This document shows positions 19,859 through 63,866 of a DNA stretch of 64,000 nucleotides, in pieces. Every line of letters begins with the position of its first letter. Within the stretch, counting starts at the first letter, position 1. Source of the DNA: Aequorivita vitellina (GTDB lineage: Bacteria; Bacteroidota; Bacteroidia; Flavobacteriales; Flavobacteriaceae); the NCBI RefSeq assembly GCF_022008365.1, contig NZ_JAIRBA010000003.1, positions 1 through 64,000 of the forward strand. Direction: 5' to 3'. The notes under the pieces were generated by a model that searched no databases, had not been told where the DNA came from, and was given only the letters and a program-made list of their open reading frames with translations. Made by a program: the position numbers and the translations under genes.

Positions 19859-19936
19859 TAAAAATAGCGACAAGGAGGATTTAACGCTAAAAAAGTGCGT
19901 AGACATTTTGTGACATGTGGTATTACAATATGTGAC
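19859..19936 (-). promoter_or_regulatory. Tandem GTCACA operator and -7-like box before the FG-GAP operon
   Basis: On the minus strand, GTCACA occurs at 19936-19931 and again at 19914-19909 (22 bp apart). TATTTTTA lies at 19866-19859, 48 bp after the start of the proximal repeat. The same architecture recurs before genes at 60847 and 63889 and behind the regulator at 20911. The stretch from here to 20834 also shares an AAAAGATTCG block with that copy. Confidence 0.6.
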
Positions 19937-20323
19937 AGAGTACTGTAAAGCAGCAATATATGATAAAACAGGAAGAAATTTGAGCTATATACATTCTTTG
20001 GAATTAGCTTCCTTCAATTTCCGGCAAAATAGAGGTAATATTTAGCAAGGAGGTTGTTTCACTATAGAATATAGGCAGTAATAAAATTACTTTCGATGTT
20101 GTTCTTTATCTAAAAAAACCTCTGTTCTTTTATACCTACAATCTGTCATCGCCAAGTAGGCGATTCTTCATATCCCTAATTTAGTTAAATTTGATAAGCT
20201 CTGGAAAATTCATGATTTGTTGAATTAACAAGCGGAAATTATCGGCAGTAGATACTATTTGAAAAATAAATTAAATGCTTTCGATCATCCGGTTTAGAGT
20301 TTTTAACCGTACCTTATCATTAT
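19937..20323. other. Gene-free stretch, possibly decayed
   Basis: No intact gene is seen. On the minus strand around 20150-20225, a short interrupted frame (PELIKFN, stop, IRDMK) vaguely resembles the small frame at 20695-20802, so part of it may be a decayed duplicate. Confidence 0.35.
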
Positions 20324-20536
20324 TTATAATTTATCGCTTTCTGATTTATTTAATTTTCTTTTTGATAATCCAATAAACAAAAATTCAATGAAATAACCAG
20401 CTATAAGGATGAGACTAATTTCTTTAAATGATTCACCCAAAACTTGATAACAAATTATGAGTAGCATAGCCCAAATAGTGCCGCTAATTATTTGAATTCT
20501 TGTTAAAATCTGTTTTAATTTTTTAGAGCATTTCAT
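20324..20536 (-). CDS. Small two-transmembrane protein
   Basis: The 70-residue product has a basic N-terminus (KCSKKLKQILTR) and two hydrophobic segments (IISGTIWAMLLIICYQVL and SLILIAGYFIEFLFIGL), ending in a charged tail. The composition and topology are typical of real small membrane proteins. No family was recognised. It stands alone between two copies of the GTCACA promoter. Confidence 0.55.
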   Translation of the reverse strand: MKCSKKLKQILTRIQIISGTIWAMLLIICYQVLGESFKEISLILIAGYFIEFLFIGLSKRKLNKSESDKL

Positions 20537-20694
20537 TTTTCTAAATTTTAAGTTTTACTCTATTGCGTTAGCGCGTTACTTTCCAAAACTATTTACGTAT
20601 TAACCTTTGTTTTTCTCGTTCTAAATTCTGCTGAAAAACGAAAATCTCGTTCTTTTTATAATAAAGCAATATATTTAGGTAATCTACTAAAGCA

Positions 20695-20802
20695 TTATTT
20701 TATGTAGTGAGATTCTTCCATATCCTTAGAAGTGAATTTGCTGAATTCTGAGAGAATAATATTTGAATTGATATTTTTAAATAATTGGTTTGAAGATAAC
20801 AT
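20695..20802 (-). CDS. Possible small ORF after the orphan GTCACA promoter
   Basis: An ATG at 20802 opens a 35-codon frame (MLSSNQLFKNINSN, then FSKFTSKDMEESHYIK). It begins about 25 bp after the -7-like box of the orphan operator, the same distance as for genes at 60847 and 63889. It has no signal peptide. It may be a genuine peptide, the start of a lost gene, or chance. Confidence 0.3.
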   Translation of the reverse strand: MLSSNQLFKNINSNIILSEFSKFTSKDMEESHYIK

Positions 20803-20826
20803 AGATCTCTATAATAAAAGATTCGG

Positions 20827-20904
20827 CAAAAATAGTTAGATGCTTATTTCTTTAAGTAAAATGGAGGAAGACAAAACGTGACAAATACAGGGAAAATATG
20901 GGAC
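20827..20904 (-). promoter_or_regulatory. Diverged tandem operator and -7 box behind the TPR/LuxR regulator
   Basis: On the minus strand, GTCCCA (20904-20899) and GTCACG (20882-20877) are 22 bp apart. TATTTTTG (20834-20827) lies 48 bp after the start of the proximal copy. It begins 7 bp after the regulator's stop codon, mirroring the arrangement at 60921-60954. The downstream region shares an AAAAGATTCG block with the promoter at 19859. Confidence 0.55.
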
Positions 20905-20910
20905 ACTGCG

Positions 20911-22560
20911 TTAAATTTCTGAGAGATATGCGTGCAGGGGAATATTTTTAGGGACATTCATCTTTTTTGAAATTCGTTCCTTTCTCTTTCGGCAAGATTG
21001 TTGGGTAATGTTGAGTAGTGATGCAATTTCCTTATAGCTTAAATTCATATAGAGGAATGCAAGAAACCGAATGTCGTTTGGCGTTAATTGGGGGTGTTTG
21101 GCTCTCAAACTATCTAGAAAACCTTGGTTTAACTCTTCAAAGTGCACAAAAAAGCTATCCCATTGCGTATCTTTTTTGAGGTGTTTTTTTAAATCGTTTA
21201 CTCGACCTTTTAAAGTAGTGTTGGTTGCAATTTGGGTGTTTACAGATAAAGAATCTACAACCTCCTCTATCAGTTCATTTTTACTAGCTAAATACATGGC
21301 CCGAGCTGTCAATTCTCTATTTTTTATATCCAGTTCGTTTTTTAAGCGTTCTTTTTCTAACAATACTAAGGCTTCTTTTTCACGGTGCTGTTCTTCAATT
21401 AATAAGTGATCGCTTATTTCTTTTTCCAATTCTAATTCTACAATTCTTTTTCGTTGTTTGTGTTTGAGGGAATTATTTTTGTACACCCATATTAAAAACC
21501 CCATAATAAGTACAACTCCAAAAATAATAATATAAAAAAATTGTTTTTCGCGTTTTAATGTTTTTTTGCTTTCTAAAAGTTCGTGTTGGTAATTTTGAAT
21601 TTGGAATTTTACTTTTTCACTTTTAAACAAGGCGGTATTCTTAATGGAGTACAGTGAATCTGTAGCAATGATTACCGAATCTTTATAGGCAATTGCTTTA
21701 TAAAATTCGTTTGTTTCTGCAAAAAGATTTGCCAGGCTACCGTAAGACGCTATTCGCTCCTCAATGTTGGGTTGTGCCGCACGGGCCATTAAAGCGTATT
21801 TTTGGGCTTTTTTATACTGCTTTTGTTTTTCGTAGATTTTCGATATCAATAGCAGCAGCGTAATTTTATCATTAACCGTTACACCTTCATTAATTAGGGA
21901 CAGATTATTTATTTGGGGTAAGATTTCTAAAGCTAGTTTTTCGGCTTGAACATATTGTTCTCGCAAATGTAGATTTTCCGCTTTTGCTATTTTTGCCAAT
22001 AAAAGGACGTTGGATCTAATTTTTAACAAGGGTAATGCCTCTTCGATATATTTCTTGGCTTGATCTAATTCTCCCATTTTATTTAACACAAGTGCTAAGT
22101 TGATGCCATAGGTACCAATAATCTCTTTGTCATCAAGGTCTTTAGCAATTTCATAAGCCTTGATAAACGATTCTTTAGCTTTGGGAAGATCCTTTTCCTC
22201 AATATATAAAATTCCTATATTGTTTACAACAAACATTTCCTGGCGCTTACCAAGATGTTTAATAGCAATTTCATAGGCTTTTAAATAATACCGAAAAGCC
22301 TCTCCATAGTCTAACATTAAACAATAATTTGTACCAATATTTAAGGTTGCATTAAAAGCTTGTGTGTACCATTCATTTCGAAGCGATGCTTCTTTAGCAG
22401 CAATCAATTCTTCAATGGATTTAGCGTGCTCTTTTTCCGATAAATATTTTACCCCTAGGTTAATTTGATCCACAACACTTGATTGGGTTTCGTTTTGGGC
22501 GAATATTTGGAATGGAGCGAGGGTTAACAACAATAGGACCGCTAAGGTATAGAAACGCAT
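20911..22560 (-). CDS. Membrane-bound TPR regulator with LuxR-like HTH
   Basis: Start chosen at ATG 22560, which gives a clean signal sequence (RFYTLAVLLLLTLAPFQIFAQ); an upstream extension to 22629 does not fit. The 549-residue protein has about seven TPR-like helical pairs (30-320) outside the membrane, one transmembrane segment (about 341-360, FFYIIIFGVVLIMGFLIWVY), a coiled coil (EKEISDHLLIEEQHREKEA) and a C-terminal HTH (about 487-549; LSYKEIASLLNITQQSCRKR, then ERISKKMN). This is a one-component type in which an envelope signal sensed by the TPRs would control the DNA-binding end. It is a paralogue of the protein at 60954. Confidence 0.8.
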   Translation of the reverse strand: MRFYTLAVLLLLTLAPFQIFAQNETQSSVVDQINLGVKYLSEKEHAKSIEELIAAKEASLRNEWYTQAFNATLNIGTNYCLMLDYGEAFRYYLKAYEIAIKHLGKRQEMFVVNNIGILYIEEKDLPKAKESFIKAYEIAKDLDDKEIIGTYGINLALVLNKMGELDQAKKYIEEALPLLKIRSNVLLLAKIAKAENLHLREQYVQAEKLALEILPQINNLSLINEGVTVNDKITLLLLISKIYEKQKQYKKAQKYALMARAAQPNIEERIASYGSLANLFAETNEFYKAIAYKDSVIIATDSLYSIKNTALFKSEKVKFQIQNYQHELLESKKTLKREKQFFYIIIFGVVLIMGFLIWVYKNNSLKHKQRKRIVELELEKEISDHLLIEEQHREKEALVLLEKERLKNELDIKNRELTARAMYLASKNELIEEVVDSLSVNTQIATNTTLKGRVNDLKKHLKKDTQWDSFFVHFEELNQGFLDSLRAKHPQLTPNDIRFLAFLYMNLSYKEIASLLNITQQSCRKRKERISKKMNVPKNIPLHAYLSEI

Positions 22561-22740
22561 TCTTCTTTTCTTAATAATTAAATGGGAAAACAAATTAGAT
22601 GTTATATTTAAGACGTTTATAGCATACATATGTTACGCGATAATGTATAAATACAAAACTAATGAATATTTAAGATTGCAATTACGCAAGATGCCAAACT
22701 ACATTAGTCCCCCAATCATGACTTTTAAATTGTTTTCAAT

Positions 22741-23601
22741 TTACCGTTGGCTTTTATTTAGAATTAAATCTTCAATTATTTTAAAATTCTTATTATTTGG
22801 TACGTGTTTAGATCCTTCCAATAAAACAACTTCTTCTAACGAAGGAAATAGTTGTTTTGCCTTTTTAATCATTTTTTTACCTGGAAACATAATGTCTTTT
22901 TCAGCAGCGAAAATGGTGATTGGTGTTTTTATGTTTTCAGCTGAATCTTTAGTAATTACAGGAAGTGGTGAGAAATCCATGTTGCAGTGCCGAAATGTAT
23001 TTGACATATAGTTTAATGCAAAATCGTCGTATTCAGTAAAAAGTACTCCCATTACTTTTTTTATGTGCTTTTGGTTATTTGTTTTGATAAACTTTTTTAT
23101 TGGAATGAACATTTTGAATAAACCTAGAAGCGGATTACCATTAACGATATAAACAGGTGCGATTAAAAAAACCTGTTTTATAGGTGTTTCATTAAACTCT
23201 AATGCCTTTAAACTGATTAATCCACCAAAGGAAAACCCTACTAAAGTGACCTCTTTTAATCTTAACTTTATAATGATTTCAATAAGCCATTTTCCATACT
23301 CTAAAGATTTCATGTCTAATCTGTTTTCAGCACTTTTATTAGGTTGTGCCAATACATCTACTGCATAGACGCAATATTTTGATGACAAATTGGGGAATGA
23401 ATCTAAAATTTGAGGTGCACAACCTCCTGTTCCGTGAATCAGAACTAAAGGAGGGTTTTCAGTATTACCAGTAATGATAACATTAGTGACACCAAACTTT
23501 GTTTCTACCAATTTTTCTGAATATTCAATATTCAGCTCTTTTAACTTTTGATTGTAAAGGCTTAAAATTTTTTCTTTTCCTTCTTTTGATTTGAAAAACA
23601 T
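22741..23601 (-). CDS. Alpha/beta hydrolase
   Basis: Start taken at ATG 23601 (MFFKSKEGKEKILSLY); a GTG at 23640 is possible. The product of about 286 residues has the alpha/beta-hydrolase plan: VLIHGTGG (oxyanion region), the nucleophile elbow GFSFGG, an acid after TIFAAEKDIMFPG, and a likely catalytic His in EGSKHVPNN. Substrate is unknown; esters, lactones or C-C bonds are possible. It starts about 50 bp after the MDR oxidoreductase and is probably co-transcribed with it. Confidence 0.8.
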   Translation of the reverse strand: MFFKSKEGKEKILSLYNQKLKELNIEYSEKLVETKFGVTNVIITGNTENPPLVLIHGTGGCAPQILDSFPNLSSKYCVYAVDVLAQPNKSAENRLDMKSLEYGKWLIEIIIKLRLKEVTLVGFSFGGLISLKALEFNETPIKQVFLIAPVYIVNGNPLLGLFKMFIPIKKFIKTNNQKHIKKVMGVLFTEYDDFALNYMSNTFRHCNMDFSPLPVITKDSAENIKTPITIFAAEKDIMFPGKKMIKKAKQLFPSLEEVVLLEGSKHVPNNKNFKIIEDLILNKSQR

Positions 23602-23651
23602 AGACTGTTCGTTTTTTGATGTTTTGACTTCGTTCAGCACGAGTTGATTAT

Positions 23652-24614
23652 TTATGGATTGATGATTACGATGTTACCCACTTTGCGTCCCGTATCAAGA
23701 TGCTGATGTGCGGTTACGATTTCTGAAAGTATATAGGTTTTATCGACATGCGTTTTTAGTTTCCCTTCTTCAAATAGATTAATTAATTCTTTTAATAAAC
23801 GTTTTAAATCTTCAGTCTTCTTTATTCCTGTAGCTTCAAACTTTACATTTTTTGGATTCCATAACATCTGCCACATAACTTTTCTACTTAAAACGGGTGT
23901 CATAAAAATACCATCAGTGGTTAAGATGGTTTTAGTGTCTTTATAGTTTAGTGTCCCTACTGTATCATATATTACATCAAATTTATCAGGTAGGTTGTAG
24001 ACTGATGTTTTTGTATAATCTATGGCTCGATTCGCGCCAAATGATTTTACAAAATCACTGTTTTTAGAACTACAAACTGCTGTTACTTTAGCTCCCAAAA
24101 CTTTTGCCAATTGCACTGCAGCAACCCCTAAACTACCCGAAGCTCCATTAATTAAAATATGCTGGTCTTTCTTAAGTTTGGCGTGTTCTTTTATAAAATT
24201 ATACGAGGTTAAAAAACCATCACAAATTGGAGCTGCTTCTTGGTGTGAAATATTAGTTGGTTTGAGGGCAATTACCATATCTTCTGTTATACATATATAT
24301 TCAGCATTACAACCATTACTAAATAGTTTTTCGCCAAAAATTTCATCTCCTATTTTGAATTCAGTTACCTCTGAACCAACCGATTCCACCACTCCTGAGA
24401 ACCCAGTGCCTAAACTTGTGTTCTTTGGTTTGAAAAGACCTAAAAAAATCCTTCCGAATTTCGGCCTTCCTGCTCTCATCATTGTATCGGCACGAGTAAC
24501 GGACGATGCTTTAATTTTAATTAAAACCTCATTAGGTTTAGGTACTGGCTTCTCAGTGTCAATAATCTGAATAACTTCTGGAGAGCCATATCTTGTATAA
24601 ATTGCTGCTTTCAT
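23652..24614 (-). CDS. NAD(P)-dependent quinone-oxidoreductase-like MDR protein
   Basis: This 320-residue protein has the full medium-chain dehydrogenase/reductase plan. A GroES-like N-terminal half (KAAIYTRYGSPEVIQ, GTGFSGVVESVGSEV) is followed by the Rossmann half (ILINGASGSLGVAAVQLAKVLGA), which carries a nucleotide-binding GASGSLG motif. Structural zinc ligands are not evident, so it fits the zinc-independent QOR/enoyl-reductase-like branch. Likely reduces a quinone or activated double bond with NAD(P)H. A broken relative lies at 43028. Confidence 0.85.
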   Translation of the reverse strand: MKAAIYTRYGSPEVIQIIDTEKPVPKPNEVLIKIKASSVTRADTMMRAGRPKFGRIFLGLFKPKNTSLGTGFSGVVESVGSEVTEFKIGDEIFGEKLFSNGCNAEYICITEDMVIALKPTNISHQEAAPICDGFLTSYNFIKEHAKLKKDQHILINGASGSLGVAAVQLAKVLGAKVTAVCSSKNSDFVKSFGANRAIDYTKTSVYNLPDKFDVIYDTVGTLNYKDTKTILTTDGIFMTPVLSRKVMWQMLWNPKNVKFEATGIKKTEDLKRLLKELINLFEEGKLKTHVDKTYILSEIVTAHQHLDTGRKVGNIVIINP

Positions 24615-24702
24615 AATTGTTATTATTTAGCGCAAAGTTGGTAACTACTTGAGCTTTAAACGTTCGTGTTTGGAAATTAGAACTTAATTGATTGGCTTAT
24701 TG

Positions 24703-25679
24703 TTACTGCCTTTTTTGCTTTGCCAATTTAAATTCCTCGGTTCTTTTTATCTGCTCTTCTAAATTCCATTCAAAATCAAATCGATTTTTCAAGAATATGG
24801 CAATGGAATCAAGTCCAATTTCAGTTCTTTGTTGCCAAACGTTTTTTATAGAATCTTATCAATGCTCTAGATTAATATATTTTAATCCTTTATACAAAGC
24901 CTTTAATGGTACAGAACGATGATTTTCTTTTTCAAAATACTCTAATTCTACTTTTAAAGGTTCATCAGATTTCTCTGTTATTAAAGCATAAAACTCGTTG
25001 TGACTTTTCTTATTCCTCTCATAATTGGCCTTTCCTTGATTGGCGGTAGCGATGTATAATTTTTTATGTAATGAGGAAATAGAATCAACTTTGTTTTTTA
25101 TCATTTCCTCATTCCACCAAATACTTGGGTCAATAGCTATGTAAGCGTTGAAGACACTATTTTTGTCATATATGCATTTAATGTTAGAAGCCCTCCCAAA
25201 GAATGACCTATGAGCGTTCTATGTGATTCTGTTCTATAATTTTTATCAATGTGAGGAATTAGTTCTTTTTCAATAAAGCTCAAAAATTTTCTTCCTCCTC
25301 CTCCAGTATTGGGACGTTTGGTCTTAATTTTTGTAACCGTAAAATCTCTTCTGCGGTCTACATTCTCAATAGTAACAATAATTGTTTCTGGCATCAAATA
25401 ATTTCTATTTCTATCCGAACTCATAAAATGTACTATTCCAACTGCTATTTTAAAATGAGCATAACCATCCAATAAGATTATAATTGGATATTTTTTCTCT
25501 ATATCAGTAGAATCATTTTATGAATTTGGAAGGCTTATCAAACAAGTTCTATTTTCATCTAATATGGAAGAATACATATTGAACTTACTGCCTACCAAAA
25601 TGTCATTATTCTGTTGCGCAAATAGGGTTTGTATTCCAAAAATAAAAATGAAAGAAAAAGCTGTTGTTAATTGTTTCAT
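24703..25679 (-). pseudogene. Broken exported esterase (Fes/EntD-esterase-like alpha/beta hydrolase)
   Basis: Reading from ATG 25679, the product starts with a signal peptide (AFSFIFIFGIQTLFAQ) and continues as a putative esterase (YPIIILLDGYAHFK, nucleophile GHSLGG, IAIDPSIWWNEE, RSVPLKALYKGL). A TAA interrupts it at 25518-25520 (PNS-stop-NDSTD), a frameshift follows near 25150, and another break comes near 24860. The tail (FEWNLEEQIKRTEEF) resumes in yet another frame to a stop at 24703. With three lesions it is very likely dead. Relatives hydrolyse siderophore or acyl esters. Confidence 0.75.
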
Positions 25680-25690
25680 AGCAATTGTTT

Positions 25691-26266
25691 TTATAGACTG
25701 TTAGCACTTGTTTTTCTGTTTAATACTTTAATTCCAAGTGCTATTAATACTATTGTCAATGCCATAAAAAATATACTTGTTGAAATGCTTTTTATAATCG
25801 AAAATATATTAGTTGCATAAACTGTAGTCTCTTTCAATTCGGGATAATTTTTAAGCATTGTAATAATTCCGAAATTCTCCAAATAATCTGCAATCCCGGC
25901 AATTATAGGTAATAGACTGAGAAAGATATAAGGGGAATTTAATTTGTTCAATTTTTTTAAGAAATATCCCAAAAGCAAACAGTAAGAAAGTCCGAATAGT
26001 AGTGGGTAAATCATATCCACAGGTATTTGGTTGTTTAGATAAGTCAAACGTCCATTTTCTCCAAGCAAACTGAATAATTCACTTACATAATCCAAATCAT
26101 ATCCTGTAGGCATCATATCCAGTAATTTCATTCCGTTAGAGAATTCCATTGTTTTGGGAATTGTAACAGTCAGCATAAAGGTGTAAACAAGATTGGTCAA
26201 GATAAAAAGGCCTAAAACTTTTTTTCCTGAAATGTTCTTTTCTATAAATTTGGTTAATCGTTTCAT
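25691..26266 (-). CDS. Multi-pass membrane protein of unknown function
   Basis: Start at ATG 26266 (MKRLTKFIEKNISGKK) is preferred over an upstream TTG/ATG extension. The 191-residue product has about four hydrophobic segments: VLGLFILTNLVYTFMLTV, MIYPLLFGLSYCLLLGYF, YIFLSLLPIIAGIADYL and IFFMALTIVLIALGI. The loop after the first contains a DMMPTGYDLDYV stretch. No known family was recognised. It precedes the dead esterase by 11 bp and may have been co-transcribed with it. Confidence 0.7.
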   Translation of the reverse strand: MKRLTKFIEKNISGKKVLGLFILTNLVYTFMLTVTIPKTMEFSNGMKLLDMMPTGYDLDYVSELFSLLGENGRLTYLNNQIPVDMIYPLLFGLSYCLLLGYFLKKLNKLNSPYIFLSLLPIIAGIADYLENFGIITMLKNYPELKETTVYATNIFSIIKSISTSIFFMALTIVLIALGIKVLNRKTSANSL

Positions 26267-26351
26267 TTTTTTTAAAATAGGTGCTAACAATAGAATATAT
26301 AAAGTAGATAAATTCTTATTGTTTTCATTTTATCAATAATTATATCAAACC

Positions 26352-26435
26352 CGAATTATGCATTACAAAATCCAATTCAGCATAGAAATATTGTAAATAC
26401 TAAAGTTTATAGGTGACTTTCTATTGCATAATTCG
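26352..26435. repeat. Long-range inverted repeat
   Basis: CGAATTATGCA (26352-26362) and its exact complement TGCATAATTCG (26425-26435) are separated by 62 bp. The element lies just 3' of the outer-membrane gene ending at 26445. It could be a terminator, an RNA structure or a mobile-element end; no T-run is obvious. Confidence 0.5.
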
Positions 26436-26444
26436 AGTGAAAGC

Positions 26445-27047
26445 TTATAACCAGCTAAACCCTAATCCTACATTAAAGATTACAGCATCTCTATGGGCGT
26501 CTCCATCTAAAAAGGCACGACCAAGGACTAATTTAGACTGTACATTAAGTGCAAAGTTTTTCTTTTTGTAAAATTCGTAACCTGTACTTGCCATAACAGC
26601 ACAGCCAAAGTTCCAATCGTCATTTACATTGTCTTCAATATCATATAGTGCTGGCGAATCTATTGCTAAACCAATTCCCCCGTGAATCCACCAACGATCT
26701 TTTATCCAATATTGTACCGATGGAATAAGTGCTCCAAAATTCCTGTCACTATCCTGAAATTCATATATGTTACCTGGTAAAGAGGCGGTAATAGCAAGTC
26801 TTTCGTTTAACATATAGCCCAACTTTAGATCTGGAAAAACAAAGGTTCCTTGAGATTCGTCGAAAGTTTGCATACCTGCGCTATCTTCTATACTGATTAA
26901 ACCTCCACCGACTACAAATTCGAATATGAATCCTTTTCTTTGGGTTGTGGTTTCAGAATTTGTGTTTTGTGCATAGGTTATACTTGATACTAATGTAAAG
27001 GCTACAAAAGCCATTCTTAATAAAATTTGTTTTTTGATTGTTTTCAT
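26445..27047 (-). CDS. Outer-membrane beta-barrel-like protein
   Basis: The product of about 200 residues starts at ATG 27047 or 27062 and has a signal peptide (LLRMAFVAFTLVSSITYAQ). The mature part has alternating short strands (GFIFEFVVGGGLISI, LKLGYMLNERLAITASL, YWIKDRWWIHGGIGLAI, FAVNLAL-type ends) and finishes with an aromatic residue region (VIFNVGLGFSWL), as barrel proteins do. This suggests an eight-stranded OmpA/OmpW-like barrel. Ligand is unknown. Confidence 0.7.
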   Translation of the reverse strand: MKTIKKQILLRMAFVAFTLVSSITYAQNTNSETTTQRKGFIFEFVVGGGLISIEDSAGMQTFDESQGTFVFPDLKLGYMLNERLAITASLPGNIYEFQDSDRNFGALIPSVQYWIKDRWWIHGGIGLAIDSPALYDIEDNVNDDWNFGCAVMASTGYEFYKKKNFALNVQSKLVLGRAFLDGDAHRDAVIFNVGLGFSWL

Positions 27048-27287
27048 TTTAATTGATTTCATGATTGTTCGTTTTTTGATTAATGATTTTTTTAATTGAT
27101 GTTCTAATTTCCTATAAAAGCTGGACGATTATGAAATGAAATAATCGAACTGTTACTTTAGAAAGATGACTTGTTGATTTTTTATTAAATTCTGAATTTA
27201 CTTTGTGATTCTTAACTAAACTGAAAAGTATCTTTATAAGACCGTATCATTCTAAGGAGGTATGACGCGTAGCTAATAGCCTTTAGT

Positions 27288-28109
27288 TTATATATTCATT
27301 TCCATTTCATATTGATTAACAGTATTCACTAACCCTATTGAATTGATGCAATCTATTTTTTGGTTTAATCTGGTATCAACATTTATGATTTTTATTGAGT
27401 TTGAAACTTCTTTTATTCCTTTGAATAATCGTTGCCAGCACCCAGCACTTTCTTTTAGAATCTCAAATTGTGCTATATACGCATTACAGGGGTATATAAT
27501 AAAATACGATTCAACCAAATTGTCATATATTAATTGATAGTATTTGTAATTTTCTTTTTTAATGACTTCTAAATTAAAGTCCCAAGAATATAATTGTTGA
27601 TTTGGCATTTTTTTCCAATCAAAAGCATTATAATCCACCTCGTTCAACTCTATTTTTTCATCTAGGTGTAATTTAATTTCGCCACTGAAACACTTAAATG
27701 TTTTACAAATATTAAATCCAATACTCTGGTACGTTTTTATGGCTTTACTATTTTCAATGATAACTTCTAACGCACATTTTATAACTCCATTTATTTTTAA
27801 ATCTGGTATAGCAAAATCATAGATTGACCTAACAATTTGTTTTCCTCTATATTCTGGAAGTACACCTGTACCCGTATTAAATGCTATTTTCTCTCCGTTT
27901 CGTTTATCGATTGCATTAATAATAAACCCAACTAACTTACCACCATCAAACATGCCATAAGAAAGCGCATAATCAACTTTTGCTATTTTCCACCTCTCTT
28001 TATAGTAATTTTTGTCACTTGGAATTTTGACGTAGTAATTCTCAAAAGATTTTAAAAAGCAATCAGCGATTATATCAAATGATACATTCTCTAATTTTCT
28101 TACTATCAA
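27288..28109 (-). CDS. GNAT-family N-acetyltransferase
   Basis: The 273-residue product starts from a TTG codon, as no ATG is near. The N-terminal half has the GNAT pattern: a substrate-side strand (YALSYGMFDGGKLVGFII), then the acetyl-CoA loop FNTGTGVLPEYRGKQIVRSIY with the R/QxxGxG/A-like PEYRGKQI, and IENSKAIKTYQSIGFNICK near the end of the fold. The C-terminal 120 residues look like a second, degenerate GNAT-like domain (YFIIYPCNAYIAQFEI). Substrate unknown. Confidence 0.75.
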   Translation of the reverse strand: MIVRKLENVSFDIIADCFLKSFENYYVKIPSDKNYYKERWKIAKVDYALSYGMFDGGKLVGFIINAIDKRNGEKIAFNTGTGVLPEYRGKQIVRSIYDFAIPDLKINGVIKCALEVIIENSKAIKTYQSIGFNICKTFKCFSGEIKLHLDEKIELNEVDYNAFDWKKMPNQQLYSWDFNLEVIKKENYKYYQLIYDNLVESYFIIYPCNAYIAQFEILKESAGCWQRLFKGIKEVSNSIKIINVDTRLNQKIDCINSIGLVNTVNQYEMEMNI

Positions 28110-29629: not shown

Positions 29630-29630
29630 T

Positions 29631-55961: not shown

Positions 55962-58055
55962 TTAAATATCTTGAGCCTGAATTGCAGTAACAATAACGGT
56001 ATTAAAAATATCGTCTGTAGTACAGCCACGACTCAAGTCGTTTACAGGTTTGTTTAATCCTTGAATTATGGGGCCAATGGCCAAAGCCTTAGTTTCTCGC
56101 TGTACGGCTTTGTAGGTGTTGTTTCCGGTATTTAAATCTGGGAAAACAAAAACATTTGCTTGTCCGGCCACTTCAGAGTTTGGCATTTTTGTTTGTCCAA
56201 CGGCAATATCAACTGCAGCGTCGTATTGAATGGGCCCTTCCACTTTTAAATCGGGTCGTTTTTCTCTGACGATTCTTGTTGCATTTCGCACACTTTCTAC
56301 ATCTGCACCAACGCCAGACGTCCCTGAAGAATAAGACAACATTGCAATTTTAGGTTCAATGCCGAATGCCCGACTGGTTGCAGCGGAAGAAATAGCAATT
56401 TCAGCCAATTGTTCTGCTGTGGGATTCGGGTTTATTGCACAGTCTCCGTACACCGATACACGATCTTCCAAAAGCATAAAAAACACCGATGAAACAATTG
56501 AAGCTTCCGGTTTGGTTTTTATAAATTGAAGCGCCGGTAGAATGGTGTGTTGTGTAGTGTGTTGCGCGCCAGAAACCATACCATCTGCATCGCCTTTGTA
56601 AACCATCATCGTTCCAAAATAAGACACGTCTATCATTAAATCTTTCGCCATTGCAAGATTGACATTTTTGTGTTTCCGAAGTTCAAATAGGGTTTTTGCA
56701 TAGGTTTCAAAGTGACGAGATTCACTAGGGTTTACAATATTAATTTTATTCAAATCCAGCGTAATATCTAGTGCCGCTATTCGTTCTTCTATTTCCTTTT
56801 TATCGCCAAGTAAGGTGATATTTACTGCATCTAAATCAATCAATCGTTTGGTTGCTCTTAAAATACGTTCATCTAAACCTTCGGGTAAAACAATGTGTTT
56901 TTTGTTGGATTTTGCCTTTTTCAATAAGTTATACTGAAACATTCTAGGCGTAATTCCATTTGTTTTAAACGTAATTAGACGTTCTACCAAAGCATCTACT
57001 TTTACATATTTTTCAAAATCTTTTATAGACGTAATTATCTTTTCGGTATTTTCGGCATAAATCTGCGATTTTATTCTTCCCAAACTATTGGTAACGGAAA
57101 ACGTTCCTCCTTCAACTGAAATAATAGGAACCACTTCTGAAAGCCCTTCAATTAGCTTAATAATGGAAGCTTCGGGCACGAGACCTGCAGTAAGCACGAT
57201 ACCAGAAATGGCGGGATAGTTGTCTGAAATATTGGCCTGCAAAGCGCCTAAAATAATATCGGCTCTATCGCCGGGTGTAATTACCAGCGCATTTTCCTTT
57301 AAGTGAAGCAGGTAGTTATGCAGTTGCATTGCGCCCACACTGTAATTTCCTGCTTGATTGTTGATAAACGGTTCACCAAAAAGAACCTTTGCACTTAAGG
57401 TATCTACAATTTCTTTGATTGAAGGGTTTGCCAAAACAGGGTTTAGCGGAATGGCATTTACAAGTACTTCCGAAGGCAGGTATTTTTCAAGTTCAGTTAT
57501 TACGAGTTCCTGATTTTTTGGTTCTACTTTATTGGCAATAACCGCCAAAACTTCAACAGCTTTATCTTTAAAGGAATCGAAAGCCATTTGTAATCTTCCT
57601 ACAAACTCATCTAAGGTTTTACCTATTCCGCTAGCCAAAATAATTGCGGGAACACCAAGATTTTTTGCAATTAGTACATTAATGTCGAATTCCTTAATCG
57701 TTCCTTCCCCCGTAAATCCAGTACCTTCAATAAGTACAAAATCAAAACGCTCTTCTAAGGCTTTATACTTTTCAATAATTCTACTAATGATTTCGCCGTC
57801 TTTGTTTTCATTTGTTTTCTTAATTACTTCGCTTCGTTTAAAAGCATAAGCATCTTCAAAGTTTATATCTAAATTGAAATAAGTTGATACGGTATTGATA
57901 TGGTTGTCTATTTCTCCTGGCTTGAAATCATCAATGATAGGTCTAAAATAGCCCACTTTAGCCGCTTTTCCCAATAGCGATTGCATTAACCCAAGCGAAA
58001 TTATAGACTTACCACTGTCCGGTTCGGTGGTGGCAATGTAGATGGCTTTGTTCAT
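55962..58055 (-). CDS. pta: Phosphate acetyltransferase
   Basis: The 697-residue protein is the long form. It has an N-terminal P-loop/BioD-like domain (TTEPDSGKSIISLGL), a middle DRTGG domain (about 210-330; LVITPGDRADIILGALQ) and a C-terminal PTA_PTB catalytic domain (370-695; VLPEGLDERILRATKRL, AQHTTQHTILPALQF, YSSGTSGVGADVESVR). It interconverts acetyl-CoA and acetyl phosphate. First gene of the pta-ackA operon. Confidence 0.97.
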   Translation of the reverse strand: MNKAIYIATTEPDSGKSIISLGLMQSLLGKAAKVGYFRPIIDDFKPGEIDNHINTVSTYFNLDINFEDAYAFKRSEVIKKTNENKDGEIISRIIEKYKALEERFDFVLIEGTGFTGEGTIKEFDINVLIAKNLGVPAIILASGIGKTLDEFVGRLQMAFDSFKDKAVEVLAVIANKVEPKNQELVITELEKYLPSEVLVNAIPLNPVLANPSIKEIVDTLSAKVLFGEPFINNQAGNYSVGAMQLHNYLLHLKENALVITPGDRADIILGALQANISDNYPAISGIVLTAGLVPEASIIKLIEGLSEVVPIISVEGGTFSVTNSLGRIKSQIYAENTEKIITSIKDFEKYVKVDALVERLITFKTNGITPRMFQYNLLKKAKSNKKHIVLPEGLDERILRATKRLIDLDAVNITLLGDKKEIEERIAALDITLDLNKINIVNPSESRHFETYAKTLFELRKHKNVNLAMAKDLMIDVSYFGTMMVYKGDADGMVSGAQHTTQHTILPALQFIKTKPEASIVSSVFFMLLEDRVSVYGDCAINPNPTAEQLAEIAISSAATSRAFGIEPKIAMLSYSSGTSGVGADVESVRNATRIVREKRPDLKVEGPIQYDAAVDIAVGQTKMPNSEVAGQANVFVFPDLNTGNNTYKAVQRETKALAIGPIIQGLNKPVNDLSRGCTTDDIFNTVIVTAIQAQDI

Positions 58056-58083
58056 TTTTTTAATATTTATTCAAAAATAAGCA

Positions 58084-58091
58084 CAAATATA
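58084..58091 (-). promoter_or_regulatory. -7-like box of pta-ackA
   Basis: TATATTTG on the minus strand (58091-58084) lies about 29 bp before the pta ATG at 58055 and matches TAnnTTTG. No clear -33 TTG is seen at the expected 20-bp spacing. Confidence 0.4.
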
Positions 58092-58116
58092 TCTTCGTGA
58101 CAAAATCTTGTGCGAA

Positions 58117-58254
58117 ATGAAAAATTTTATTCAAAAAGTAAAGGTAGTGTTGATTGAGAATAAATTAAATGATTTGCGTCATACCCTGTTGGGAAATATC
58201 AAATTTTATGCGTTGGTTTTAAGGGAAATTTTAAGAAGTGAAGCTGGCACTTGA
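58117..58254 (+). CDS. Possible small ORF between pta and the BNR gene
   Basis: A 45-codon frame from ATG 58117 (MKNFIQKVKVVLIEN, then KFYALVLREILRSEAG) has an amphipathic, helical composition. No family or clear promoter. The remaining 58255-58477 stretch has no gene. Confidence 0.25.
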   Translation: MKNFIQKVKVVLIENKLNDLRHTLLGNIKFYALVLREILRSEAGT

Positions 58255-58477
58255 TCATTGAGAAAAAAACATACAGTTGAAAACAGAGGTATTAAGGAAT
58301 AGAATCTATTATTTAAAATATGAAATTCAAGAGAAGCAATTATAGGAGGAATCGATTAATTGTAATTCAGAAAGTATTAAATTCAATGGAACACGGCCAA
58401 AAAAAAATAAATCTATTGATGTCAAAGTCGTTTATGTCAAAGGACAAAGAACTCAATGAATGAAAGATAAATTAATA

Positions 58478-58506
58478 AGGCTGTCTAAATTGATTGTAGA
58501 CAGCCT
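58478..58506 (-). terminator. Terminator of the BNR T9SS gene
   Basis: AGGCTGTCT (58478-58486) pairs with AGACAGCCT (58498-58506) with an 11-nt loop. On the minus strand it is followed by T/A-rich DNA. It lies 32 bp after the stop codon of the gene at 58538. Confidence 0.65.
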
Positions 58507-58537
58507 CTCAGCTATTTAGGATGGGAAAAGGAAATTT

Positions 58538-60847
58538 TTATTTTTTTACGATGCGTTTTATAAAATTATCTCCTTTGGCATTTTTAATAGCAACAAAATA
58601 AATACCACTTTCTAAATTCCGGATGTCAATTTGCTTTTCTGCAGCGTGTTTCATCACTATTTGTCCAATTGCATTATAAATATGGATTGAAACAATTTCG
58701 TCGCCATTATTCTTTATGTTAATAAAATCTTGCGCAGGATTGGGATAAACAATAAATGAATTTGAGTTTTGAGAAATATCAGGGGTTTCCAGTGTGCCGA
58801 GGTCTATTGTATATTTGATAAGTCCTAAGTCAAAAGTACTTAAATAAACGTCTACGCTATCTTCTTGAAAAAGGTAGCTCATACTCAAAGAACCCACGTG
58901 AGCAATGGCCTCAAAAGGTACCTCAATCCATGTCTCCCCTCCATCGGTAGTATAGATTATTTGCGCATCAATGGGATCTCCAAATAACGGTTGTCTGGTC
59001 ATTCTAGATGCTACCGCGTGCAAATCGTTGAATTGCGAATATGTCATCTTTCTTAAATTGTGCCCTTGATAGGTTTGAATCCAATTTTCACCTTGATCGG
59101 TTGTTTTAAATATTCCAGAATTTGTAGCAATGCTATATTCATTATTATGAAATGGGCTTTGTTCAATATCGTAAATAACATTATCTCCAGTTGGTAACCC
59201 ATTACTCTTTTCCACCCAAGACAAACCACCATCGACAGACTTGTAAATTTTAGCGCCAGCAGCCATATAAACTAAGTCTGAATCATTTTCGTCAATAAAT
59301 ACATCTAACATGGATTCGGTTCCGGGAAGAGCGACTGGAGTTACAGCAACGTTATTTAAATCAGTAAAATCAATTATAACAGGTCCTCCCACTTCAAAGG
59401 ATGCCCAAACAATATTCGAATTATTGGGGTCTTGGTTCACGCTTCTAATTTCATCAAAAAAGTTTACAAATAATGGATCGTAATTTCTTCCAAAATCTGA
59501 GCTTACTCCCAAAACCGATCCTAATGAAGAAGGAGTATATTTATATAAACGACCAATCGTATTTTTCTCCACGTGGTAAAATGGTGGAGGATTACTACTA
59601 AATACTCCTAAAGGCACAATGTCAAAAGACTCAACTTCATTGGTCTGTAAATTTTTATGAATTATTCCTTGTTGCGCTTCAAAATACAAATGAGTTTCTG
59701 AATCGCTTTGAATTCCCGTAAAAGTTGATGAAAGAAAAGGGTTGGGCAGTTGGGAGAAAGTGGCACCATAATCTGTAGATAAAAGTGGGTAAAAGTTACT
59801 ATTGATAAACACCTCTCCTTGTTGAAACGGACTAAACGAGGCATTGAGCCCATAAAAATATCCATCAGAAGGGCCAATTGGATGTACATATTTTTCAAAG
59901 CTTTGCCAATCATCTTGGGTAACTACTATTTCGTTCTCTTCTAAAACCATAACTGTATTGGGGTTTTGAGCGTCAAAAACAATAACATTTATTACATCTG
60001 AAATACCCGCTTCCCAAGGAATAGGGATAATGTTCCAAGTATCTCCACCATCAACTGATCTGTATAGATTCTCTGATTGACCTCCGTAACCAACATCATC
60101 AGTTCCTAATAAAATTATGTCGCTGTCTAGAGGATGAAAAGCTATAGCTTTAAATGTTGTTCCAGGCATTTTTTCCTCCCACGTTTGACCGGCATCATTG
60201 GAAATAAACAAACCCCCAAAGGTTCCTGTAGGACTATTTCCTCGGGCGATGAATAATTTCTGGGGATTAGTTGGGCTAATTGCTACATTATTAGGAAATA
60301 CAGAATCATAATTTTCGGGTAGATAAACCTCTGTCCAGTTCTGCCCGCCATCATTGGTGTAGTACACAACTTCGCTGTCAAAACGGCCTACTCTATAACC
60401 AAAATGCAACATAGCTACGAATGGATCTTGCGCGTAGACTGAATATGAAACCATGGAAATATTTTCGGCACCTATAGGAATTGGAGCTGTATATTTTATA
60501 ATGTCTCCACTTCCTGTATCTAAAAAATACAAGCCATTGTCTTCCAAGGTAGTTGGAGACTGCACCATAAAACTCAAAATTCCGGCAAAAACAAATTTTA
60601 ATTTTTTAAATCGACCTGAATTTCCAGGCATGCTATAAATAATCTCCCAAGTTTCTCCTTTGTCATTTGATTGAAGAATATGATTATTCAGACTAAGCGC
60701 ATAAAGTCTATTCTCCACATTTGAATCGAATGTAATGTCGAATATCCTACCATAATTACCGTTGCTATCGAAAGTAATTTGTGATTGAACTGTTGAATTA
60801 CAAAAAAGCACTATAAGCACCATTATAATTTTTGTGATAATTTTCAT
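58538..60847 (-). CDS. T9SS-exported BNR/Asp-box repeat protein
   Basis: The 769-residue protein has a signal peptide (IITKIIMVLIVLFCNSTVQSQ). Repeated Asp-boxes (SNDKGETWEII, TNDGGQNWTEV, SNDAGQTWEEK, SVDGGDTWNII, TTDGGETWIEV) mark a sialidase/VPS10-type beta-propeller. It lacks a recognisable sialidase catalytic set, so binding is more likely than hydrolysis. A type A sorting domain ends it (VYPNPAQDFINI, GIYFVAI, FIKRIVKK). It lies directly after the regulator at 60954, with the GTCACA operator between them. Confidence 0.85.
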   Translation of the reverse strand: MKIITKIIMVLIVLFCNSTVQSQITFDSNGNYGRIFDITFDSNVENRLYALSLNNHILQSNDKGETWEIIYSMPGNSGRFKKLKFVFAGILSFMVQSPTTLEDNGLYFLDTGSGDIIKYTAPIPIGAENISMVSYSVYAQDPFVAMLHFGYRVGRFDSEVVYYTNDGGQNWTEVYLPENYDSVFPNNVAISPTNPQKLFIARGNSPTGTFGGLFISNDAGQTWEEKMPGTTFKAIAFHPLDSDIILLGTDDVGYGGQSENLYRSVDGGDTWNIIPIPWEAGISDVINVIVFDAQNPNTVMVLEENEIVVTQDDWQSFEKYVHPIGPSDGYFYGLNASFSPFQQGEVFINSNFYPLLSTDYGATFSQLPNPFLSSTFTGIQSDSETHLYFEAQQGIIHKNLQTNEVESFDIVPLGVFSSNPPPFYHVEKNTIGRLYKYTPSSLGSVLGVSSDFGRNYDPLFVNFFDEIRSVNQDPNNSNIVWASFEVGGPVIIDFTDLNNVAVTPVALPGTESMLDVFIDENDSDLVYMAAGAKIYKSVDGGLSWVEKSNGLPTGDNVIYDIEQSPFHNNEYSIATNSGIFKTTDQGENWIQTYQGHNLRKMTYSQFNDLHAVASRMTRQPLFGDPIDAQIIYTTDGGETWIEVPFEAIAHVGSLSMSYLFQEDSVDVYLSTFDLGLIKYTIDLGTLETPDISQNSNSFIVYPNPAQDFINIKNNGDEIVSIHIYNAIGQIVMKHAAEKQIDIRNLESGIYFVAIKNAKGDNFIKRIVKK

Positions 60848-60871
60848 ATAAAGTTTATTTTAAGTTTGGCT

Positions 60872-60947
60872 CAAAACAAACTATAAGCATTAGGGGTGGC
60901 AAAAATTAAAACATAAAAACTGTGACATATTTAGTTAAATGTGTGAC
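60872..60947 (-). promoter_or_regulatory. Tandem GTCACA operator and -7-like box before the BNR gene
   Basis: On the minus strand, GTCACA at 60947-60942 and 60926-60921 (21 bp apart) precede a TTGTTTTG box at 60879-60872, 47 bp after the start of the proximal repeat and 25 bp before the ATG. The distal repeat begins 7 bp after the regulator's stop codon. Confidence 0.6.
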
Positions 60948-60953
60948 TTCAAA

Positions 60954-62606
60954 TTAAAATCCTGATATATAGTTAAATAGATCAGACCCGTCTCTTAAAT
61001 TCATTTTTTTAGAGATACGTTCTCTTCGTTTTCTGCAAGCTTCATAAGTAATGTTAAAAACAGTTGCTATCTCCTTATTTGTTAATTTCATGTACACATA
61101 GCAGATAAATCGCAGATCATTTACATTCAAGTTAGGGTGCTTTTTTTTAATGGCACTTATAAATCCCTGATTTACCTCTTCAAAATGATCGATGAAATTT
61201 TTCCATTCTTCTTCGGAACGTACCAATTCCTTTAGTTTTTTAATATACGCCTTCATATTTCCATTCTGCTGTTCCGTCTGTGTTTGTTGTTCTAAATCAT
61301 CAATAATTGATTGAAGCAACTCATTTCGCTGAATTAAATGGAGAGCTTTTGCAGAAAGTTTACGGTTGCGGAAACCAATTTCATTTTTAAGACGCTCTTC
61401 TTCCAAGAGTGCCCTTGTTTCTTCTTCATTTAATTTCTTTTCCAACAGGAGTTTTTCACTCTTTTCCTTTTCCAGTTCCAAGGCCATAACTTCTTGGTTT
61501 CGTGCATGAATAATTCTTCGCTGTTTAGCTTGTATATAAATAGTACGTAAAGCCAAAGCAATTAACAGAATTATAAGTATAGCTGCTCCCAGAAGCACAC
61601 GGAAGGTTTTTTGATTCGCTTCCATTTCTTCTTGATTATTCATTAATTCATTTTGGTAATTTTGAACTTCGAATTTAACTTGGTTTGTTTCAAAAAGACG
61701 GCCATTCTTGATTTCATTCCATTGGTGGGAAACGGATAAAATAGAATCTTTTGCAACAAGTGCAAGTTGAAGCTTACCTGTTTTAGTATATATTTTTGAT
61801 AATTGGTGAAAAGCATCTAATCGTGCTTCTATATTATTTGAATACTGCAACATTGCATTTGCCCTCTCCACGGCCAAGGGCATATCGTTTTCATTGTATG
61901 CTATTTTTGAAAGCAGTAACAACACATCTGTCACCAAATCTTTTTTATTTTTAGTTCGCAAATCTGGTAGAAGTAAGAGCAACCTATCCTTTGCCTCTTT
62001 ATAAAACCCTGAAAGAACTAACGTTTCCGCCAGTCCAATAAACGCCTGTTGTTTCATCCTAGGAGACTCTTCTAATAAAGGAATTGCCTCTTCAAAATAG
62101 GCTTTGGCTTGATTAAATTTGCCAGATCTGTTTGTGACAAGACCTAGATTTACCGCATATAAGCCCCTTTTTTTTTCCTCATTATTTTGGATCGCTATCA
62201 CATAGGCTTTCTTGAAATATTCATAGGATTTATCATATTTTTCCTCTTTGGAATACAAAATTGCAATATTGTTGAGGACAATCATTTCGTATTTGCTATC
62301 CAGCTCCTTAATAGCAATAGTGTAAGCTTCTAAGTAACTATCCAAAGATTCACCATAATCATATAAAGAATAATAATTTGCCCCAATATTGTTAATGGCT
62401 AAAAATCGCTGTTTACTCCAATTGTTTTCCTTTGCCAATACTTCGGCCTCTACTAACAATTCAAGAGATTGGGTATATTTACCTTCATACAATAGTCTCA
62501 CTCCTTCGTTTATTAGATTATCACAATAAGCCAGTCCCTTATCTTGAGCATTCGTTAATCCTGAGAATAACATCAAACCTAAAAACATCACTATTTTATT
62601 AAACAT
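60954..62606 (-). CDS. Membrane-bound TPR regulator with LuxR-like HTH (second paralogue)
   Basis: ATG 62606 (MFNKIVMFLGLMLFSGLTNAQ signal) is preferred over 62639. The protein of about 550 residues has seven or so TPRs (35-310), one transmembrane segment (VLLGAAILIILLIALALRTIY), a coiled coil (EKEKSEKLLLEKKLNEEET) and an HTH tail (LTNKEIATVFNITYEACRKR, RERISKKMN). The recognition helix is nearly identical to that at 20911, so both should read the same DNA sequence. It likely senses an envelope signal and controls the BNR gene directly downstream. Confidence 0.8.
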   Translation of the reverse strand: MFNKIVMFLGLMLFSGLTNAQDKGLAYCDNLINEGVRLLYEGKYTQSLELLVEAEVLAKENNWSKQRFLAINNIGANYYSLYDYGESLDSYLEAYTIAIKELDSKYEMIVLNNIAILYSKEEKYDKSYEYFKKAYVIAIQNNEEKKRGLYAVNLGLVTNRSGKFNQAKAYFEEAIPLLEESPRMKQQAFIGLAETLVLSGFYKEAKDRLLLLLPDLRTKNKKDLVTDVLLLLSKIAYNENDMPLAVERANAMLQYSNNIEARLDAFHQLSKIYTKTGKLQLALVAKDSILSVSHQWNEIKNGRLFETNQVKFEVQNYQNELMNNQEEMEANQKTFRVLLGAAILIILLIALALRTIYIQAKQRRIIHARNQEVMALELEKEKSEKLLLEKKLNEEETRALLEEERLKNEIGFRNRKLSAKALHLIQRNELLQSIIDDLEQQTQTEQQNGNMKAYIKKLKELVRSEEEWKNFIDHFEEVNQGFISAIKKKHPNLNVNDLRFICYVYMKLTNKEIATVFNITYEACRKRRERISKKMNLRDGSDLFNYISGF

Positions 62607-63062
62607 ACTCGCATTTTTTGAGGAATAAAAAAGTTTCATAATTCCAAACCTAAGGTTTTTAAAACCATTAGAATCCTTTGTCGTCTCACTTTATAGGAAA
62701 TCCTTACACCTCTAATATTTGTTAAAATATATAAAAGACCCAAATTTTTGGTATTGATATAAGTTTTGCGGAGTAGCGATTAAAAATTATTTGAAATAAT
62801 ACTGTTAAAAAGTTTCAGGAAAATTAAGTCTTCCCTATAAAAATAGTGGCCATTCAACCTTTTTTCGAAATGTAAGTCACTTGAGTTTAATCAAGGAAAT
62901 TTATTTGAACGTATATAATACTTCAATTTTAGTTTGAAATATGTTGTACCAATCCCTAAAGACTTTCTGTAATTGAATACATGCTAAACATTCTTGTAAC
63001 CAAATTTCATTTTTTTAATCCAATAAACAATACCAATGTATTTTTAACTTAATTAAAGAACT
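62607..63062. other. Divergent intergenic region without gene
   Basis: No gene is seen in this 456-bp AT-rich stretch between the divergent regulator (minus) and cupredoxin gene (plus). A single GTCACT at about 62877 has no partner at 21-22 bp, so it is not counted as an operator. Confidence 0.5.
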
Positions 63063-63653
63063 ATGAAAACAAAATTATTATTACTAATCTTTTTAGGATT
63101 TTTAACGGCAAACGCACAAAACACCTATAATTTAGACTGGGTGATGGGAATAGGAAGCAACGTAGATTTAACAATTGATCAAGGCGATACTGTAATTTGG
63201 ACGTGGGGAGATAATGCACCTCATACCGTTGAAAACGAAGTGGGAAACTCAGTAGAAACTTTTAATAGTGGCGTGCTTTCTGGAATGGGAGAAACCTATG
63301 CCTACACTTTTACCGAGGTAGGCGACAACAGATATTTTTGTGGAATTCACGGTGCAAATAACATGTCGGGTACTATTACCGTACGAGAAGTCTTGGGTGT
63401 TGAAGAAAATAATTTAAGTGCAATAAGTATCTACCCAAATCCATCGTCCTCAGTAATAAATCTGGAGATTCCACATAACATTCTATCTGGTCAAATAACC
63501 GTGTTTAATGTGTTGGGAAAACAAATCTATTCCGATGATTTTGAACCAAATTCTAAGATTTCAATAAACATTACAAATTGGAGCACAGGAAGTTATTTTC
63601 TAAAAGTAGTTTCTGGCGAAAACGCAATAACCAAAAGATTTGTTAAAAACTGA
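63063..63653 (+). CDS. T9SS-exported cupredoxin (plastocyanin-like) protein
   Basis: The 196-residue protein has a signal peptide (LLLLIFLGFLTANAQ). Residues 20-110 form a cupredoxin domain with likely type 1 copper ligands: His in NAPHTVENE, Cys and His in RYFCGIHGANN, and Met in NNMSG. A type A sorting domain follows (IYPNPSSSVINLEI, GSYFLKVV, ITKRFVKN). It would be a copper-binding, perhaps electron-transfer, protein at the cell surface. Confidence 0.85.
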   Translation: MKTKLLLLIFLGFLTANAQNTYNLDWVMGIGSNVDLTIDQGDTVIWTWGDNAPHTVENEVGNSVETFNSGVLSGMGETYAYTFTEVGDNRYFCGIHGANNMSGTITVREVLGVEENNLSAISIYPNPSSSVINLEIPHNILSGQITVFNVLGKQIYSDDFEPNSKISINITNWSTGSYFLKVVSGENAITKRFVKN

Positions 63654-63790
63654 TTTCATTTAAAACCAATTTTACTGCAAATTTTCTGAATGTAAATTAA
63701 AATGCCTGCTTTTGTGAAAATTTCGGTTTCCGGCTGCCAGGAATTTTTGCGCTACTGAAAAGAGTTGTTTTTACCCCTTGTTTAGAAATT

Positions 63791-63866
63791 GTCACAGTAT
63801 TTTGGAAATACGTCACAGTATTTCGAAATTATAACAATGGAGCCTGAAGCAGCAGTATTAAATTTG
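63791..63866 (+). promoter_or_regulatory. Tandem GTCACA operator and -7 box before the partial gene
   Basis: GTCACA at 63791-63796 and 63812-63817 (21 bp apart; identical for six more bases, GTATTT) precede TAAATTTG at 63859-63866, 47 bp after the start of the proximal repeat and 23 bp before the ATG at 63889. Confidence 0.6.

Follow-up and report, generated by a model that had tools for sequence, protein, structure and literature searches.

Tandem GTCAC repeats mark a cassette of putative regulator, putative operator and exported-protein gene in Aequorivita vitellina and many other Bacteroidota

In the first 64,000 nucleotides of contig NZ_JAIRBA010000003.1 of Aequorivita vitellina (referred to as the window), four sites carry tandem GTCACA repeats, or diverged forms of them, 47 or 48 bases before a promoter-like box. 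Our data reveal that such repeats mark a compact cassette, present in many Bacteroidota, in which a putative regulator gene is followed by a putative operator, a promoter and the gene of an exported surface protein, a cargo of the type IX secretion system (T9SS). Based on sequence and position, we consider it likely that the regulator, a protein with tetratricopeptide repeats (TPR) and a C-terminal helix-turn-helix (HTH)-like domain, binds the tandem operator and activates the neighbouring T9SS cargo gene. This phylum-wide connection between regulator, operator and cargo was not visible to an earlier sequence-only reading of the same DNA, since that reading had seen a single window.

The association was established starting from the regulator. 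Scanning the species genomes of GTDB yielded 79 loci (from the top 80 among 156 relatives that were confirmed). Of 199 sampled family genomes, 14, the window genome among them, carry the regulator at E<=1e-40; the genomes of the family and phylum searches are drawn samples throughout. The 113 regulator C-termini with a stop codon (L074, whose contig ends near the match, is outside these rows) were reduced to 96 by removing 17 duplicates over the first 90 downstream bases, and these 96 do not form a census because only the best 80 of the 156 relatives were kept. Within the first 60 bases past the regulator stop, GTCRC occurs in 87 of the 96 and a pair of such motifs 20-23 bp apart in 78. The same windows past other open reading frames (ORFs) of these loci contain GTCRC in 14 and a pair in 0 of 334 cases, and mononucleotide shuffles gave means of 5.3/96 and 0.2/96, respectively. 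The titles of the regulator-bearing records include Flavobacterium, Winogradskyella, Aequorivita, Moheibacter, Epilithonimonas, Cesiribacter, Chitinophaga and metagenome-assembled genomes of Bacteroidales. Seven regulators have no cargo gene next to them (L046, L054, L055, L078, L098 and the first copies in L044 and L062), and these also lack the operator. Three of them, relatives of the regulator in Flavobacterium (L054, L055, L078), are followed by a PorP/SprF-type gene in place of the cargo.

The repeat unit is TGTCACRNTWTTTC, a GTCAC half-site with a second half-site (GTC, TTC or TTA) 10 bp further. The tandem GTCACA repeats described in the sequence-only reading correctly captured the main half-sites, and the second half-sites had escaped it. 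In the 78 pairs, the two units are spaced by 22 bp (40 pairs), 21 bp (36) or 23 bp (2), and the first unit begins 0-9 bases past the regulator stop. Counted from the G of the proximal unit, a T-run follows the operator at about +22 to +24, the TAnnTTTG-like box (taken as the best-scoring box within +36 to +57) lies mostly at +47 to +49 (43/78, the remainder mainly at +36 to +41), and an ATG is most frequent at +71 to +82. In Flavobacterium psychrophilum, the sigma-A box TAnnTTTG is described at positions -12 to -5 (PMC9723704). If the box has this position here as well, the operator would extend over about -82 to -45 and border the -33 region on its upstream side, a common location for activator binding; since it would thus end upstream of the core promoter, an activator suits this geometry better than a steric repressor. 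The earlier proposal of an operator of activator type, set at a constant distance from a -7 box of the Bacteroidota kind, is supported.

The four sites of the window follow the same layout and were all recovered, with distances from the proximal copy to the box of 48, 48, 47 and 47 bases that reproduce the end coordinates given before. Exact GTCACA-N15/16-GTCACA tandems occur at 19936-19909 and 60947-60921 on the minus strand and at 63791-63817 on the plus strand, with an expectation of 0 from 100 dinucleotide shuffles of the window. The operator-promoter of an FG-GAP cargo gene (19859..19937, minus strand) combines a GTCACA pair at a spacing of 22 with GTC at +10 of the proximal copy and the -7-like box TATTTTTA at 19866-19859. 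A diverged copy of it behind the first regulator gene (20827..20905, minus strand; the site starts at 20904) reads GTCCCA and GTCACG, also at a spacing of 22, followed by TATTTTTG. Between the second regulator gene and its cargo gene (60871..60948, minus strand), the GTCACA pair has a spacing of 21; here the box TTGTTTTG at 60879-60872 is weak, and a second box-like sequence, TAATTTTT, lies at a distance of 18 bases, counted from where the proximal copy starts. The fourth operator-promoter (63790..63866, plus strand) precedes a third cargo gene without an adjacent regulator and has a spacing of 21 and TAAATTTG at 63859-63866. The box matches TAnnTTTG exactly only at 20827 and 63859, and the full pattern of the sequence-only reading with an exact TAnnTTTG is matched by 63791 alone. 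Two operator subtypes can be distinguished in the window, one with a spacing of 22 bp and GTC 10 bases into the proximal copy and one with 21 bp and TTT or TTC at this position. Behind both regulator genes, 6 bases separate the stop codon from the first GTC of the pair.

To search by the operator itself, we used profile R1, made from 76 operators with the window genome left out, and profile R2, made from 62 operators with recognised same-genus sequences left out. In the 3.63 Mb of the window's own genome (197 contigs), the top four matches of either profile are the four sites of the window. R1 found 19936 at E 4.0e-9, 60947 at 2.2e-7, 20904 at 1.5e-5 and 63791 at 0.0044, with the next match at 0.035; for R2 the values are 8.7e-7, 3.3e-5, 0.0071 and 0.0033, with the next match at 0.28. 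At 63791, both matches are confined to the operator half of the model. The genome scan that the sequence-only reading had proposed as a check thus leaves exactly these four sites above noise. Among 28 same-genus genomes, R1 gave 32 matches at E<=1e-4, 30 of them in contact with the 3' end of an intact or broken regulator gene. Half of the 32 (16) belong to the training set or are identical to its members, as judged by matching of loci, and 14 of the other 16 are regulator-adjacent. The two non-adjacent matches are 19936 and a site at an FG-GAP gene in G025, where a regulator lies one gene downstream. The regulator is present at E<=1e-30 in 19 of the 28 genomes, 17 of which have an operator match at E<=1e-4. 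In 296 sampled phylum genomes, searched with stricter filters, matches at 1e-4 were found only in the window's own genome and in G404, where the match follows a regulator, with the regulator carriage of the rest left uncounted. The R1 site in L172 and the weaker site in L186 also follow regulators; L194, L173 and L188, where the match falls within a coding gene, have R1 matches at E 0.001-0.01 that were taken as noise.

The third component of the cassette is the cargo. The window contains three cargo genes, namely cargo 1 (18278..19771, minus strand), a 497-amino-acid FG-GAP repeat protein, cargo 2 (58538..60847, minus strand), a 769-amino-acid Sortilin-Vps10/BNR propeller-like protein, and cargo 3 (plus strand, 63889..64000 and past the window, coding to C131:64764), with 292 amino acids. 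All carry a T9SS type A sorting domain, with TIGR04183 scores of 43.1, 49.7 and 47.9, respectively, against a cut-off of 23 bits. The earlier statement that three of the sites precede exported-protein genes applies to 19936, 60947 and 63791, and 20904 precedes no such gene. The same types of cargo recur behind the 96 regulators. Sortilin-Vps10 was found in 75 downstream ORFs (56/62 in set A2, 19/34 in set A3) and FG-GAP_2 in 7, and Por_Secre_tail in 56/62 of A2 and 15/34 of A3, where 22/34 ORFs are cut at the locus end. By inspection, the other 14 comprise four members of a third, shorter type (L068, L118, L119, L120), three other large exported proteins, two second regulators and five unrelated ORFs. 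A search with the Vps10 cargo in 299 family genomes found 21 genes in 16 genomes, at loci many of which coincide with those of the regulator search, reached by another route. Directly behind a regulator, one of them broken (L214), lie 19 of the 21; in 17 of these 19 the tandem is recognised by pattern, with GTCCT half-sites in L218, and in L207 and L210 a diverged form was recognised by eye. For the third cargo type there are seven matches. Regulator and operator accompany three of them (G222, G143, G046) and are both absent in G214. The matches in G111 and G290 are partial, and the one in the window has the operator and no adjacent regulator.

The two regulators of the window, regulator 1 (P0002, 572 amino acids, 20911..22629, minus strand) and regulator 2 (P0001, 561 amino acids, 60954..62639, minus strand), are paralogues with 39% identity and share the same predicted architecture: a signal-like N-terminus, TPR, a hydrophobic helix, a coil and a C-terminal HTH. 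For regulator 1, this is derived from Pfam TPR_12, a weak Sigma70_r4_2 match below cut-off and an alignment with relatives, and for regulator 2 from Pfam, alignment and, in addition, AlphaFold2 models (mean pLDDT 84.4 for the full length and 86.6 for the C-terminal part alone). The model of regulator 2 predicts a TPR solenoid (helices 55-287), a continuous helix (290-453) and, from about 493 to 559, a small helical domain. The hydrophobic stretch (residues about 346-370) is part of the continuous helix and lies between TPR and the HTH-like domain. In Foldseek, this C-terminal domain pairs with the DNA-binding domains of NarL, LiaR, VraR and RcsB with a good local fit (TM-score 0.73 by target length and 2.2-2.3 A for VraR and LiaR). 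A sequence search of the PDB returned only TPR proteins, with Rap proteins among the matches of the TPR part. No Pfam LuxR/GerE match at 0.001 was found in the two regulators, nor any specific family name above cut-off in Pfam or NCBIfam. Judging from these models, the regulators are most likely membrane-spanning one-component proteins with one transmembrane helix, a periplasmic TPR domain and a cytoplasmic LuxR/NarL-like HTH domain.

The following mechanism is proposed. The coiled coil would probably dimerise the regulator, and the HTH units would bind the two tandem TGTCACRNTWTTTC copies; the second GTC/TTC half-site 10 bp on would imply contacts about once per helical turn on one face of the DNA. 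Upon a signal received by the TPR domain, the regulator would bring RNA polymerase to the promoter of the neighbouring gene for a T9SS-exported protein, so that regulator 1 would control the FG-GAP cargo via 19936 and regulator 2 the Vps10 cargo via 60947. The sequence-only reading had pointed to the HTH proteins encoded at 20911 and 60954, and these are the best candidate readers in view of their position, their HTH-like fold and the co-occurrence seen by regulator, cargo and operator searches. A possible recognition code was analysed across the pairs. G at +10 is found in 23/23 pairs nearest to regulator 1 and in 10/55 nearest to regulator 2, and this holds across cargo types. Likewise, serine at residue 3 of the recognition helix goes along with G at +10 in 25/25 pairs and other residues in 8/53 (4/53 helices were missed by the regular expression). 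The underlying tree omits L070, L087 and L101, which contain an internal stop, and the full-length structure alignment omits L070. Autoregulation finds no correlate, as neither R1 nor R2 matches upstream of either regulator and no such element was seen in the 160 and 430 bases inspected. Two further TPR-HTH-like proteins of the genome (L007, L008) have no such site in the 157 bases past their stops.

Several observations weigh against activation by the adjacent regulator or against parts of it. The -7 box at 60947 is weak, the Foldseek matches of the HTH domain are weak in E-value (best 0.093), and G005 and G027 have a regulator and no operator match at E<=1e-4. The correlation between helix and base is not significant after correction for descent, because the tree offers only three independent contrasts; it is retained as a lead. 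The pairing of 63791 with regulator 2 is based on spacing and nearness. Besides, the bare pattern GTCACA-N14-17-GTCACA is not commoner than its reversed control, with 3 against 2 matches in the own genome and 19 against 57 in the 28 same-genus genomes (control counts were summed by hand, and some are high in single genomes). Eleven of the 19 immediately follow a regulator gene (10 in relatives and 1 in the own genome), two are the other own sites and six are unrelated. Enrichment of the bare pattern was therefore rejected as stand-alone evidence, and the four sites are significant because of their position and conservation. The earlier claim that the geometry exceeds chance stands insofar as all three genome matches lie in the window and the held-out profiles rank the four sites first, but it does not stand for the bare pattern.

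These control counts would also suit the view that the repeats are no operator at all and either arose by chance or act at the level of RNA or structure as part of the upstream gene's 3' end. This appears very improbable in the light of the conserved position behind regulators (78/96 against 0/334), of the ranking by two held-out profiles and of 63791, which lies 138 bases beyond an unrelated gene and nevertheless keeps the spacing to box and start codon. The tandem could instead be read by another factor encoded elsewhere, with the TPR-HTH gene as a mere neighbour; adjacency alone is no proof, and neither 19936 nor 63791 is immediately preceded by a regulator. It is hardly to be expected in this case, though, that all nine regulator-free same-genus genomes would lack an operator match at E<=1e-4, with weaker ones only, that both Vps10 cargo genes without a regulator would lack the operator (L208 and L213, the latter a partial match), and that regulator-like genes without an operator would be without cargo as well, and we regard such a factor as improbable. 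The sign of regulation is not fixed by the sequence, and an operator that adjoins the promoter might also serve a repressor, which would hold the cargo promoter off until the TPR domain receives a signal. We consider this unlikely, as the operator ends upstream of the core promoter on the usual box placement and the -7 boxes are often imperfect, with a full score in 2/78 pairs. Activation by the adjacent regulator remains our favoured explanation. A more speculative extension, to which we give little probability, is that each regulator monitors the product of its neighbouring cargo gene: before export by the T9SS, this surface protein or its sorting domain would be bound by the periplasmic TPR domain, in a private feedback loop, and cassettes would multiply, swap cargo and drift in operator code for insulation. 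If true, such a loop would adjust how much of one surface protein is made to how much is exported.

Compared with known systems, the C-terminus of the regulators is predicted to have the small helical fold of LuxR/NarL (GerE) domains, but LuxR/NarL proteins differ from the window regulators, which are without a receiver domain and have a predicted membrane anchor and a tandem direct-repeat operator. ToxR/CadC-type proteins combine an outside sensor, one transmembrane helix and an inside DNA-binding domain with a target gene nearby. The window regulators resemble them in the predicted order of outside sensor, single transmembrane helix, inside DNA-binding domain and neighbouring target, but are inverted (N-terminal sensor, C-terminal HTH) and have a TPR sensor, a LuxR-like instead of an OmpR-like domain and a T9SS cargo gene as probable target. 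With the RRNPP (Rap-type) proteins they have the TPR sensor in common, whereas RRNPP systems consist of a cytoplasmic receptor and a cognate propeptide gene, in contrast to predicted membrane proteins with a C-terminal HTH. The nearest named NCBIfam is the BT3442 family (NF053779, BT_3442), similar to residues 309-548 of regulator 2, i.e. the coil and the C-terminal region; with 30.3 and 28 bits against a cut-off of 940, the window regulators are not members. BT_3442 of Bacteroides thetaiotaomicron is described as a TPR protein clustered with MACPF lipoproteins, and the accessible portion of this paper assigns it neither a regulator role nor an operator (PMC2954219). The PorXY-SigP circuit of Porphyromonas gingivalis is T9SS-related and influenced by the C-terminal domain (CTD) protein PorA (PMC7712824), but it is a two-component system with an extracytoplasmic function (ECF) sigma factor acting on machinery genes, unlike a one-component regulator beside a cargo gene. 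Similarly, the ECF-type motif of F. psychrophilum concerns the T9SS machinery (PMC9723704).

In the literature searched by title and abstract opening, with subscription papers and preprints outside the search, no regulator-operator-cargo unit of this kind was found. The kind of system, a membrane-bound one-component regulator beside its target, is known, and its architecture, operator and target class were not found described. As far as we found, the published circuits concern the machinery, and the switching-on of single T9SS cargo genes is little described. The cassette offers a sequence-defined operator across a phylum together with a probable reader and target, and as all three fit within about 4 kb, it becomes possible to test binding, activation and signal directly.

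The loci in the window deviate in part from the plain order. In five same-genus relatives (L015, L017, L020, L021, L022), regulator 1 leads via the operator to the FG-GAP start codon within 167-187 bases, while the distance in the window is 1139 bases. Here, regulator 1 is followed by an eroded operator copy, a 70-codon ORF with hydrophobic stretches (20324..20536, minus strand), the better operator and cargo 1. The copies at 20904 and 19936 are identical in 59/102 bases, and the about 0.9 kb between them (20826-19938) is lacking between regulator and cargo in the five relatives. It is probable from this comparison that 20904 is a decayed duplicate without a cargo gene of its own, left after a duplication or insertion of about 1 kb. 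The locus of regulator 2 shows the plain order of regulator, operator and cargo. The site at 63791, which begins behind a gene ending at 63653, resembles the operator kind of regulator 2 in its spacing of 21 and in having TTTC as second half-site, and cargo 3 shares 44-46% identity with genes of G222 and G143 that immediately follow a regulator gene. Most simply, cargo 3 would probably be controlled in trans by regulator 2. The idea of one small regulon of T9SS cargo under one activator has to be modified accordingly: three cargo genes with a T9SS domain are there, but two paralogous regulators each head a cassette, with two operator subtypes.

Same-genus genomes contain 0 to 5 regulator matches, and operator subtypes that track regulator clades in such paralogous cassettes provide a natural system for studying the joint change of a LuxR-like HTH and a direct-repeat operator. 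Three cassettes, one of them inverted, lie within about 12 kb in one genome (L110, L122, L124; G002:C4, about 257-269 kb), which suggests local multiplication. Beside other paralogues, GTCCC or GTCCT half-sites occur (L186, G025:C49; L187, G011:C33; L124, G002:C4; L218, G007:C1), perhaps as a diverged operator code. Regulator genes with stops or frame breaks are found in L167 (G001:C12:22040-22855), L184 (G007:C1:1686398-1688054) and L182 (G015:C2:42972-44321), and since their operators still score well, some cassettes may be decaying or read in trans.

Further observations concern the surroundings of these sites. Two of the six unrelated matches of the bare pattern belong to a tandem array of 23-bp units with GTCACA (G008:C27 from 298265, L016/L026) that has no tie to the cassette. 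Between regulator 2 and 63791, a 196-amino-acid plastocyanin-like protein with a T9SS sorting domain is encoded (63063-63653), which has no operator match of its own. Beyond the window, just past cargo 3, heavy-metal-efflux-like genes were recognised by eye on the minus strand (C131:64956-68968, L192).

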